A stretch of 64,000 nt of DNA from Calycina herbarum (Eukaryota > Ascomycota > Leotiomycetes > Helotiales > Pezizellaceae): contig LLEY01000072.1 of assembly GCA_001414485.1 (NCBI GenBank), positions 62,001 to 126,000 on the forward strand, read 5' to 3'. The notes under the pieces were generated by a model. That model was not told where the DNA came from and ran no database searches. It worked only from the letters and a program-made list of their open reading frames with translations. Below, one piece after another: positions 7,875 through 11,227 of this stretch (position 1 is the first letter of the stretch; each line of letters begins with the position of its first letter). The position numbers and the translations under genes are program-made.

Positions 7875-8858
7875 ATGAGGGTGCTCCTCCTATTGTTTTC
7901 CATCGTCATTGCGTTTCTCTCTGTGGCATTCAAGGACCGCATTACCTCAAAGTTCACAGCTCTCACCAGTCTGCTAAATCAAAACAACACCACTTACCTG
8001 CCACTTCGACTCCTCAAGAGAGACTCCAATTCCGCAAACATGACAGCTGCTCGCACAATCCGCAAAGCCTTTCTGGCAGTCGAACAAGCAGAGGGTGTTG
8101 GAGCTAGAGTTCGTCGCGCAATCGGAACACCACAACTACAGAACCTCGATCCCTTCCTCATGCTCGATCATTTCAATATACCACCTGGAGCAGGCTTCCC
8201 GGATCACCCACACAGAGGACAAGAAGCGATTACATATCTGTTAGAAGGAGCGGTCGACCACGAAGATTTCATGGGAAGCGCTGGCACAATTGAAGCTGGG
8301 GATCTACAATTCATGACGGCAGGAAGAGGCATAGTCCACGCAGAAATGCCAAGTCAAAACCAACGGGCGAACATTGGGATGCAGTTATGGGTCGACCTCG
8401 CAAAGATAGACAAGATGTGCGAACCAAGATACCGAGATTTGAAAGCATCCGAAATACCACATGTTGAAATCGACGGAGGAAAAGTCAAGGTCAAGGTCAT
8501 CAGTGGTAAAAGCCATGGAATCGACAGTGTTCAGGAGTTGGCAAAGACTGAAGTATGGCTTCTCGACATCGATATAAAACCAGGCGGAAAGATCACACAA
8601 GAACTACCAAAAACGTTCAACGCATTCGCATACACGCTCGGAGGAAGCACGCAGTTTGGTGAAGGAGACGACAAGACCCTTATTGGCCAATATCATAACG
8701 TTGTTTTCGAACGGGATGGAAATAAGGTCATTGTGGAAGTAGATGAGAGTGCCACCGAGAATGGTCGTTTTAGTGAGCCCACACTTTTATTTTCTTCTAA
8801 CTTTCGCTCCAAAAAAGTTTCCCAAAGAGCCAACCAACAGAAGTATATATTGGGTTAG
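7875..8858 (+). CDS. pirin-like cupin protein, C-terminally truncated
   Basis: Pirins are Fe(II)-binding bicupin proteins that act as nuclear cofactors or quercetin 2,3-dioxygenase-like enzymes. The core starts at residue 56 (MTAARTIRKAF, base 8040). It carries the N-terminal cupin signature: DPFLMLDHF, then FPDHPHRGQEAITYLLEG with metal-ligand histidines, then FMTAGRGIVHAEMP. The second cupin begins but stops after YHNVVFERDGNKVIVEVDES. The family's closing block of about 55-60 residues, which begins around an (F/L)IAGxPL motif, is absent. It is replaced by an unrelated tail of about 33 residues ending at 8858. The loss of homology coincides with a GTGAGC sequence near 8771 that resembles a splice donor, but no pirin-like exon was found downstream. 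The upstream 55 residues begin with a hydrophobic segment (MRVLLLLFSIVIAFLSVAF), so the protein may be membrane-targeted, or the true start is 8040. Probably a truncated gene. Confidence 0.78.
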   Translation: MRVLLLLFSIVIAFLSVAFKDRITSKFTALTSLLNQNNTTYLPLRLLKRDSNSANMTAARTIRKAFLAVEQAEGVGARVRRAIGTPQLQNLDPFLMLDHFNIPPGAGFPDHPHRGQEAITYLLEGAVDHEDFMGSAGTIEAGDLQFMTAGRGIVHAEMPSQNQRANIGMQLWVDLAKIDKMCEPRYRDLKASEIPHVEIDGGKVKVKVISGKSHGIDSVQELAKTEVWLLDIDIKPGGKITQELPKTFNAFAYTLGGSTQFGEGDDKTLIGQYHNVVFERDGNKVIVEVDESATENGRFSEPTLLFSSNFRSKKVSQRANQQKYILG

Positions 8859-8971
8859 GCTAATGATGGGACTCGCTTGTCCCTAACCTTTAGGTGCTTC
8901 CAGCGAAGCACCTTTCAAAAATAAACATCAACAACCTCAAAAAGGGAAAAATAATATGCCCAGGCTGTTTT
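8859..8971. other. spacer between pirin remnant and tRNA
   Basis: Short intergenic DNA containing an inverted GGTGCTTC..GAAGCACC hairpin (8893-8912) and, on the minus strand, the Pol III terminator of the tRNA. Confidence 0.6.
8947..8951 (-). terminator. Pol III terminator (T5) of tRNA-Gly
   Basis: The minus strand reads ATTATTTTTCCC about 20 nt beyond the tRNA 3' end. This T5 run is the first adequate RNA polymerase III stop downstream. Confidence 0.6.
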
Positions 8972-9121
8972 TGCGTTCTCCGGGAATCGAACCTATTCAA
9001 TGTTAGAGAGGGAAATGTTGAAGAGTGTAGTAGAAGAACTTACCCGGGGCCAATGCATATAGACCAATTAGTTCTCTAACTGGATTGGCAAGCATCGATT
9101 TTACCACTAAACCACAAACGC
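8972..9121 (-). tRNA. tRNA-Gly(GCC) with anticodon intron plus T-arm insertion
   Basis: On the minus strand the gene begins GCGTTTGTGGTTTAGTGGTA: acceptor 5' strand, then A box TGGTTTAGTGG. The anticodon stem GATGC is followed by loop TTGCCAA, with anticodon GCC at 9087-9089. A canonical pre-tRNA intron of about 28 nt follows (about 9058-9085) and contains ATTGG, which can pair with the anticodon-loop CCAAT. The stem closes with GCATT. After variable loop GGCC and T stem CCGGG, a 51-nt insertion interrupts the T arm (8993-9043). Removing it restores CCGGG-TTCGATT-CCCGG exactly. The B box GGTTCGATTCC is intact in the DNA because the insertion's last G completes it. The acceptor 3' strand AGAACGC pairs with GCGTTTG except for a G-U and a terminal G-A mismatch, so a pseudogene is possible. 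Confidence 0.8.
8993..9043 (-). other. putative spliceosomal intron inside the tRNA T arm
   Basis: On the minus strand this 51-nt segment starts GTAAGT, contains CTAAC about 10 nt before its end and finishes AATAG. These are the donor, branch point and acceptor of an ordinary fungal pre-mRNA intron, at a typical length. It is not at the canonical tRNA intron site (37/38) and lacks the bulge-helix-bulge context that tRNA endonuclease needs. Precise excision restores a perfect T arm. Whether it is removed is unknown. Confidence 0.65.
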
Positions 9122-11227
9122 TCTCATTTTCGATGTGTGAAAAAGTCTTATTACATCCGAACTTTCAAATTGTGTGGGGGAGTCTCTTTTAGTGAGATCA
9201 GCCCGGAGCTAGTCCATTTGTGGGGCATCACAAAATTATCATTCATGAAACACCTTTGAAATATTCACTAACAATTACTCGGCTTTAGTTCTCGTAGCCG
9301 GAAACTCTCTTGATCAAGAGGTTGTCCAGGGTGGTCCTTTTGTTTTAACATCAGAGAAAGACCTCAGACAAGCCTTCGAAGACTACTATTCTTAGAATGG
9401 ATTTGAGCGCGCGGCGGGATGGAGTAGCAAGATCGGAAAGTCGATGGTTTCTTGAGTTGTAGGCGAGATTTGAGGGATAGGGGGTGTTCATAACGATTAG
9501 ATGGTTGCATTGGTGGTGTTTTTAATAGTATAGCATGCGTGGCTGTATCTTGTTCAGTTCGAGGATGACGATGAATGAAAGTTTTTAAGATCCACCTTAA
9601 GATGTCTTCTCGAGATACAAAACCAGTGATAGGATATTTCAAATGTGGTGCAAACTAATTGTAGCTGACTAAATTGTTAAACTGAGGGGTAGCTCCGGGA
9701 AAGCTGTCGACTACTTAATTCAATATCATGAATAAATCTTGAAAAATAGTTAATCTGGCCGAGCGCCAGTAGAAAGACTTTATCTAAAAATAAATATAAA
9801 GTTATATGTTTTCTAAAGATAGTAACCTATAAATTTTAAGTAAGATAAAAGTTATATAACTTTTATATTAATGGAAGAGAGCAAAATTCAAAAAGATAGA
9901 AAATCTAGTTTTTAAATAGTAAATATAAGTTGTGTAATGTTTATTAAATATTATATAGTAATAGCGTTAAAAATCCGATATTTTGTTAGTTATTGTTACT
10001 TTTTTGATGATAATAATCGTATTAGAATAAGGTGACTCGATAACATATATCGCAATATTTACGATAAAAATTGGATTAGTGCCCAAGTCTGGAAGTAACT
10101 AAATATACACCAAATTCAGTAACGGAATTTTCGTCGACTTACTCAAGTATTCTAAACTTTTTAGCATATTCTTATTAGATAATGTTACTTAGACAAGCAC
10201 CTTGCCCTCTAAATCCTTACAAATCTTATTACTTAACTTAATTAATCTAACTATTCTCGAATAATATAATCTAACAGCTAACGTTACTATACTCAGTACA
10301 CAATACTACGAAGCGGTAATTAAATTGGTCAATTCCACAATTAGTAAATAAAATATTTCACCCTTAGTGAAGCTTAGAAGCAGTTCTTGGCTTGTTTTCG
10401 CTTATGTATCAAAGTGCTCGATAGCCTTCTCGTCACTACTTGTAATTGTTATTGTAAAAAGTTGTTTCATTTTGAAGCAGCGTATCAAGTAAAACAATAA
10501 GTATTTGCAATTTTTAGTCGTAAAAAAATCCGATTTCTATACATGTAGGAAAATTTAAACTTTAAATATCGTAACTTACCTGGAAGTTCTTCTGGATGCG
10601 TGATGAATTCTATATTTAGTTGGAAACTATGCGCTTAAGAAAGTTTAGAGATTAGGCGTGAAGCTGGGAGACTACTGGAAACAAGAGAGAACGAACTCTT
10701 GAGACCTTGAATAGTTTTTTTCTTCGTGAATTGATAATAATATACATATTTGCTACAAGCCTTGGTTTTTACGTGTTGCCTAGCTGTTGTGTGGCGGGGC
10801 AGTCACGCAGTAGAGGCAATTGCACAACAGGGATGCTCACGACAGATAAAAGGGTAGTAAACAACTCTTATTAATCTACCTTTTGAAAATAATTTAAGAT
10901 GATTGTTCTAAAAGATCTGGGTCTGTATTCCAAGCTGTAATACCCTAAAAAGTCAGAATAATGAAACCTCCTTTGCGTTTTTGAATGTTCTTCGCCATTG
11001 GCGAGGTCGCATATAGTGGGGTCATAATATCTGCTGTCACTGGCTGAGTTAGGGTTACATTATACATGGAGCCTTGAGTTGTGCCGGCTAATATCAGCAG
11101 ATAAGAGAGGGAACCTCGCTGACAGTGGTGCGGGTGCCTACAGCTTTTTAGTTTTGGCATTCTTTCTTGAAACTGTGATAGCTTCTGAAAACGGCTTACA
11201 GTTTATTACTGGACCAGACTGGTAAGA
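9122..11227. other. intergenic, partly RIPed, no gene recognised
   Basis: 9122-9720 has normal composition. 9720-10560 is AT-rich with moderate RIP. 10560-11227 is normal. Open frames at 9364-9642 (minus) and 10945-11160 (minus) resemble no family I recognise. Confidence 0.5.

Follow-up and report, generated by a model that had tools for sequence, protein, structure and literature searches.

The introns of tRNAs and those of mRNAs are taught as separate systems with separate enzymes, and we know of no case in which the spliceosome works on a tRNA. mRNA-type introns are reportedly present in fungal U6 snRNA genes (a finding credited to Tani and Ohshima in 1989 and to Canzler et al. in 2016), and one is said to lie in the 18S rDNA of deuteromycetes (credited to Rogers et al. 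in 1993). U6 is a Pol III gene, and its introns are like those described here in that a spliceosomal intron lies within a small structured RNA gene. U6 differs in being part of the spliceosome, where an accidental insertion during splicing is easily imagined, whereas tRNAs are not part of it; furthermore, seven of the 11 interrupted tRNA genes of the current study carry an anticodon-loop intron in addition. The 18S rDNA case is alike in being an mRNA-type intron in a non-mRNA gene, and unlike in that the gene encodes a ribosomal RNA and belongs to Pol I.

Spliceosomal introns are also described for fungal U3 snoRNA genes, with GT-AG or rarely GC-AG ends and an RCTRAY branch motif (PMC5832005, passages on U3 introns). 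According to the same passages, they resemble the tRNA inserts reported here in these ends, in the RCTRAY-like branch and in being present in some paralogs and not in others, Leotiomycetes included, but their mean length is 92 nt and they are concentrated at the 5' end of U3, whereas the tRNA inserts are 48–55 nt long and occupy six sites in four tRNAs. The known introns of tRNAs, at the 37/38 site or ectopic as in archaea and Cyanidioschyzon merolae, are likewise intervening sequences of tRNA genes, sometimes outside the anticodon loop; unlike the inserts, they are recognised by a bulge-helix-bulge and lack GT-AG ends and a branch site (PMC3978253 and PMC4090602, sections on tRNA introns). 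No report of a spliceosomal intron in a nuclear tRNA gene was found in the open-licence literature, and reports elsewhere are possible. In three reviews, the string "spliceosom" is absent (the tRNA review PMC4090602), "intron" occurs once, in a reference (PMC7609411), and "spliceosomal intron" is used once, for protein genes (PMC3978253).

The window (the whole 64,000-nt stretch analysed, on the contig here called C350) carries a tRNA-Gly(GCC) gene at 8972–9121 on the minus strand, with three exons of 36, 14 and 21 nt and two interruptions, the second of which is very probably a spliceosomal (U2-type) intron. The gene is nuclear and belongs to a set of at least 11, drawn from four isoacceptors, that are interrupted in this manner. 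Exon 1 (9121–9086, 36 nt; tRNA positions 1–37 with the anticodon GCC) is identical in the five other complete Gly copies, and contains the internal Pol III promoter element TGGTTTAGTGGT (9103–9114), which we take to be the A box from the general consensus of such boxes. It is followed by an anticodon-loop intron at the ordinary 37/38 site (9085–9058, 28 nt), identical at 27 of 28 positions to that of the copy on contig C46 and divergent from the others. Exon 2 (9057–9044, 14 nt) extends to T-stem position 52 and ends in CCCCGG.

The predicted mRNA-type intron (9043–8993, 51 nt) separates T-stem positions 52 and 53 and runs from GTAAGTTCTTC to CTCTAACATTGAATAG, i.e. GTAAGT...CTCTAAC...TAG. The candidate 5' splice site GTAAGT (9038–9043) is shared with the C361 copy and reads GTATGT in the C46 copy; the candidate branch site CTAAC (9002–9006) lies within CTCTAAC, its adenosine 10 nt from the insert end, and the candidate 3' splice site is TAG (8993–8995). 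The last G of the insert completes the B box in the DNA (AGGTTCGATTCC, 8983–8994, including the preceding AG). Exon 3 (8992–8972, 21 nt) supplies the T loop, the 3' strand of the T stem, the acceptor strand and discriminator A. The first downstream run of five T residues (8947–8951), a likely Pol III terminator, begins 21 nt past the gene on the same strand.

Removal of both interruptions gives a cloverleaf with 20 of 21 pairs, and excision of the 51-nt insert yields CCGGG-TTCGATT-CCCGG. The original prediction had given these coordinates and motifs, the restored T arm, and a terminal G of the insert that completes the B box and leaves the Pol III boxes intact; direct reading and parsing of the sequence agree with it on each count. 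The unpaired position is due to base 66 (8979), which is A in the window copy and C in the five other complete copies, leaving pair 7–66 mismatched. Of the three Gly genes that are both complete and interrupted, the window copy is made the weakest by this acceptor-stem mismatch, and on account of that mutation, and of three Gly(GCC) genes that lack the insert, it may be decaying.

The Rfam tRNA model matches exactly 8972–9121 on the minus strand at 20.3 bits, the cut-off being 29 bits, and the gene was reported neither by ARAGORN nor by the default-threshold Rfam scan; this blank is a limit of the tools and not absence of a gene. ARAGORN did call the C361 gene, merging its two inserts as a single 72-nt "intron". 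The neighbouring gene (7875–8858, plus strand) is of the pirin family and is convergent with the tRNA gene at a distance of 113 bp. Its nearest named relative, from Cudoniella acicularis (71% identical), suggests a fungus of the Helotiales.

The 150-bp window gene was searched against the whole genome (68.8 Mb, 379 contigs), and seven tRNA-Gly(GCC) loci were found. Three complete genes have the T-stem insert (the window copy, C46 and C361), and three have the anticodon intron only (C363, C340 and C85). The spliced exons are identical at 71 of 71 positions in C46, C361, C363, C340 and C85, and the window copy is one base off. Between C46 and C361, 37 of 50 aligned positions match in the T insert (plus 4 gap columns) and 17 of 24 in the anticodon intron (plus 9 gap columns). 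Despite this drift, GT, CTCTAAC and TAG are retained in the Gly T inserts, and when only the middle of the inserts was shuffled, the observed scores of the three Gly pairs were attained 0, 5 and 11 times in 1000 trials. The seventh locus (C187:46261–46352) is a truncated copy that kept most of the insert, with the branch motif altered to CTAAT, and lost the tRNA 3' half and a D-loop base.

Among the complete Gly genes (six) and the Arg-ACG genes (five), flanking sequences are for the most part no closer to each other than random 100-mers (mean 0.62, 60 pairs, range 0.47–0.79); the highest 3' flank values in these two families were 70/89, and 66/76 with 48 gap columns. The 5' flank of the C187 copy, which was left out of this comparison, resembles by eye that of the uninterrupted C340 copy. 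An introner-like mobile family was also considered and is not supported, the 150-bp gene having matched tRNA-Gly loci only in a word-limited search.

Altogether, 11 interrupted tRNA genes of four isoacceptors were identified in the genome (Gly-GCC, three; Arg-ACG, four; Arg-UCU, two; Leu-UAG, two), with inserts of 48–55 nt at six positions and GT-AG (nine) or GC-AG (two) ends. The eight genes other than Gly came from Rfam tRNA matches and from targeted searches. Rfam matches numbered at least 58 listed (63 of 3182 candidates scored), 17 of them on contig C237 (35,670 bp), which looks mitochondrial. All 41 listed outside that contig were inspected, and four were interrupted by an mRNA-type insert, in a list that is biased against interrupted genes and in which hidden inserts were sought by eye only.

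Among the Arg-ACG genes, two (C336:336215–336337 and C166:708–830) lack an anticodon intron and carry 51 nt inserted at 52/53, and their sister on C351 has a 52/53 insert together with an anticodon intron. The exons of these three are identical at 72 of 72 positions and their inserts match at 35–38 of 49–50, with GTA, CTAA and AAG retained. Under the middle-only shuffle their pair scores were reached in 0, 7 and 579 of 1000 cases, the exception being C336 with C351; the inserts within a family thus appear mostly still related beyond the splice signals. The C339 gene has an anticodon intron and a 54-nt GT-AG insert in the acceptor stem at 70/71; after excision its sole difference from its sisters is pair 5–68, changed from G.T to T-A. 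A fifth Arg-ACG gene, C235, has the anticodon intron only. About 440 bp from the C351 gene, at C351:96138, lies a 3' fragment that resembles tRNA-Arg(ACG), with no insert and with unrelated sequence upstream.

The two Arg-UCU genes carry a 52-nt GC-AG insert at 71/72 (C1) and a 55-nt insert in the D loop at 18/19 (C336). Both Leu-UAG genes have an anticodon intron, whose borders were placed by eye, together with a 48-nt GC-AG insert at 51/52 (C347) or a 54-nt insert in the variable arm (C349), and both are absent among the Rfam matches listed for the genome. On the strand opposite the C349 gene, about 170 bp away (C349:265973), there is a degenerate, inverted Leu-like 3' end.

The insert borders were examined by scoring every deletion of insert length (70–78 per gene) as a cloverleaf, the anticodon introns having been removed beforehand (by hand in the two Leu genes). 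The deletion flush with GT-AG or GC-AG was among the best-scoring in 11 of 11 genes, restoring 19–21 of 21 stem pairs, and all conserved-base checks held after excision (10 of 10 in each of the 11 genes). Equally good offsets numbered 2–5 in nine genes, 9 for the D-loop insert and 12 for the variable-arm insert. A branch-like adenosine in [CT]TAA[ACT] lies 10 nt (five genes) or 11 nt (six genes) from the insert 3' end, the motif being CTAAC in eight genes and CTAAT, CTAAA or TTAAT in one each.

Compared with the GTRWGT-like donor consensus (PMC5832005), GTAAGT (twice) and GTATGT fit, GTACGT and GCAAGT (twice) are one step off, and five donors are weak, namely GTAAAT, GTACAT and GTAATT in the three Arg-ACG T-stem inserts and GTAGGC and GTAAAC in others. 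A branch motif like RCTRAY at 6–36 nt before the acceptor, the criterion being taken from the same paper, is found in all 11 genes, with the leading R missing in some (Gly, and Arg-UCU on C1). The acceptor is YAG in eight of the 11 inserts and AAG in the T-stem inserts of the three Arg-ACG genes. In six of the seven types of site the intron is preceded by a G, and a G at this place is a feature of proto-splice sites.

In 200,000 random segments of 48–55 nt, each taken at four offsets, GT/GC...AG ends occurred in 2.6%, and such ends with a YTAAN branch at 10–11 nt in 0.059%. Among 25 distinct anticodon introns at five offsets, such ends were seen in two, and ends with a branch in none; here the ARAGORN borders were used, and L011, L068 and L075 were excluded, as the called intron was not a plain anticodon intron. 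The inserts go back to about seven independent events, one for Gly 52/53, one for Arg-ACG 52/53 and five that are each represented by a single gene. As some of them were noticed through their intron-like look, the chance probabilities were not multiplied.

Ordinary intron-like strings in 148 kb, with the tRNA inserts removed, numbered 24 (three in the reversed control), with a median length of 53 nt and a branch distance of 7–16 nt (9–12 in 18 of them). Eleven of the 24 came from eight loci that had been fetched by a similar pattern; without them there are 13 (control, two), with a median of 48 nt and a distance of 9–12 in nine. Since the pattern required CTRAC, this comparison covers length and branch distance only. 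When the inserts were compared pairwise (55 pairs), 13 pairs scored as high as the 99th percentile obtained from 100 shuffles, three within a family and ten between families, and these ten score 16–24, near the threshold, as common splice motifs would give.

Further 52/53 inserts were sought behind exact B boxes. Neither AGGTTCGANTCC (23 sites, control 23) nor AGGTTCGANCCC (15 sites, control 24), all of whose listed sites were inspected, led to any beyond the three Gly and three Arg-ACG genes. The pattern GGTTCGAWTCC has 80 sites (control 26), of which 55 were inspected, 15 of these as 121-nt stretches only. One B-box site (C49:150852, 121 nt inspected) shows a tRNA-like 3' half with an intron-like interruption. 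A covariance model of a tRNA with a T-arm intron, applied to eight loci, gave higher ranks to the six that are interrupted than to the two that are not; this ranking carries no weight, because the model was partly built from the same inserts.

In the six 52/53 genes the first run of four or more T residues starts 10–26 nt downstream (random 40-mers, 19%) and none lies inside, and by reading the A and B boxes are kept. The Leu-UAG insert on C347 contains TTTT, which could stop Pol III. TTTT is absent from 16 of the 24 ordinary intron-like strings, so its absence is ordinary here. Five U6 gene matches span 95–109 nt, and since by span none looks interrupted, no Pol III precedent is seen in this genome.

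In the likeliest pathway Pol III, rather than Pol II, would start at the A and B boxes and stop at the downstream T run. The spliceosome would then excise the 48–55-nt GT-AG or GC-AG intron via the branch adenosine 10–11 nt from its 3' end, and the tRNA endonuclease and ligase would remove the anticodon-loop intron where one is present, the order of these steps being presumed. The cloverleaf would fold, followed by end-processing, and the products would work in translation. Making these tRNAs thus probably needs the spliceosome. At the level of the DNA this proposal draws on the borders, the branch signal, the restored cloverleaf, the identity of exons as against the drift of introns, the boxes and the terminators.

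It is improbable that the inserts are inert and the interrupted copies pseudogenes, their exons being kept alike by gene conversion from intact copies. The mismatch at 7–66, the losses in the C187 copy and the existence of intact Gly and Arg-ACG copies are in line with this, and for most flanks the likeness is at the random level, so that spread by conversion is possible. However, conversion would have had to halt at the intron edges repeatedly, leaving drifted introns between identical exons, and the splice and branch signals have been kept while the remaining insert sequence drifts. Moreover, two isoacceptors have interrupted genes only, among those found, and none of the copies found is an uninterrupted one that could have donated the altered 5–68 pair of C339. 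The original prediction had named many intact copies elsewhere, together with mutations accumulating in the window copy, as the mark of a pseudogene. Half of this is borne out, with three insert-free Gly(GCC) genes and a single acceptor-stem mutation in the window copy, and it is outweighed by the family-level evidence and by the two isoacceptors whose nuclear genes, as far as found, are all interrupted. Splicing might also be confined to Pol II read-through transcripts of the tRNA loci, whose products would not be translational tRNAs. The spliceosome normally acts on Pol II transcripts and the window gene has a convergent pirin gene 113 bp away, but this reading is very unlikely in view of exons identical over all 71–72 positions, of the retained promoter boxes (A and B) and T4+ terminators, and of a minus strand without open frames of more than 96 codons in 8401–10200.

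Archaeal ectopic tRNA introns occupy similar places (T arm, D loop, acceptor stem), and the three Arg 52/53 inserts come to three of the four pairs that the central helix of a bulge-helix-bulge requires. The sites also resemble those of red-algal ectopic introns (PMC3978253, section on ectopic introns). It is nevertheless extremely unlikely that the inserts are ectopic introns of the archaeal or the Cyanidioschyzon (red-algal) type, which the tRNA splicing endonuclease cuts. In our own strict form of the motif, the 4-bp central helix was formed by none of the six 52/53 inserts at three junction shifts (maximum 3/4), and GT/GC-AG ends with a branch at 10–11 nt, present in 11 of 11 genes, would be useless to the endonuclease. 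A spliceosomal intron is thus the preferred reading. It upholds the earlier view of the insert as an mRNA-type intron in the T arm, which gains from two other complete Gly genes with drifted inserts, kept signals and identical exons, and from the recurrence of the same kind of insert in Arg and Leu tRNA genes; the further claim that it is not a normal tRNA intron is likewise in keeping with position 52/53 and with borders that form no full bulge-helix-bulge.

The Gly and Arg-ACG families do not depend on the insert, since three Gly genes and one Arg-ACG gene are without it. For Arg-UCU, the spliced tRNA, used as the query, matched two nuclear loci, each of them interrupted. The 14-mer of the anticodon arm is exact only at those two loci, and with one mismatch its 19 sites in total (control, 16) are background. 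The 11-mer GACTTCTAATC from the same arm has 34 sites (control, 17), of which two were inspected, so that a third Arg-UCU gene elsewhere is possible; none of the other 32 lies within 1 kb of a listed B-box site. By established decoding rules, fungal tRNA-Arg(UCU) is the sole cytosolic reader of AGA, which among the six Arg codons is used most often (81 of 328) in nine long window ORFs from a mechanical ORF list. For Leu-UAG, two loci were found, both interrupted. On these gene counts, the cell must remove the Arg-UCU and Leu-UAG inserts, unless a divergent third gene was missed. For Leu-UAG such removal is not proven essential, as an inosine-34 Leu tRNA could cover CUA.

It seems rather more probable than otherwise that, in this fungal lineage, nuclear tRNA genes were repeatedly invaded by mRNA-type introns at numerous positions, to the extent that the spliceosome is indispensable for making some isoacceptors, Arg-UCU among them. 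If so, translation capacity would depend directly on splicing. The Gly, Arg-ACG (C351 and C339) and Leu-UAG pre-tRNAs would each need two unrelated splicing machines per molecule, while the Arg-ACG tRNAs of C166 and C336, without an anticodon-loop intron, would need the spliceosome only and their sister C351 has both introns. The two systems would meet in functional tRNA genes that carry spliceosomal introns, the spliceosome handling a tRNA precursor. These genes would also offer a clean case for intron entry into structured RNA genes, in which some copies have the intron, others lack it, and the structure of the 72-nt product is known exactly. Such genes can be missed by tRNA finders, as the window gene was by standard scans and as the Leu-UAG genes lie outside the Rfam matches listed.

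Other loci met in these searches are of separate interest. At C359:145548 and C333:66870 a common sequence ends in a tRNA-like 3' part, which to our eye resembles tRNA-Asp, with the 5' half absent from the inspected stretch; it is perhaps a tRNA-derived repeat. At C367:111252–111414, two adjacent tRNA genes (Ile-TAT and Asp-GTC by ARAGORN) have encoded CCA ends and a bacterial look.
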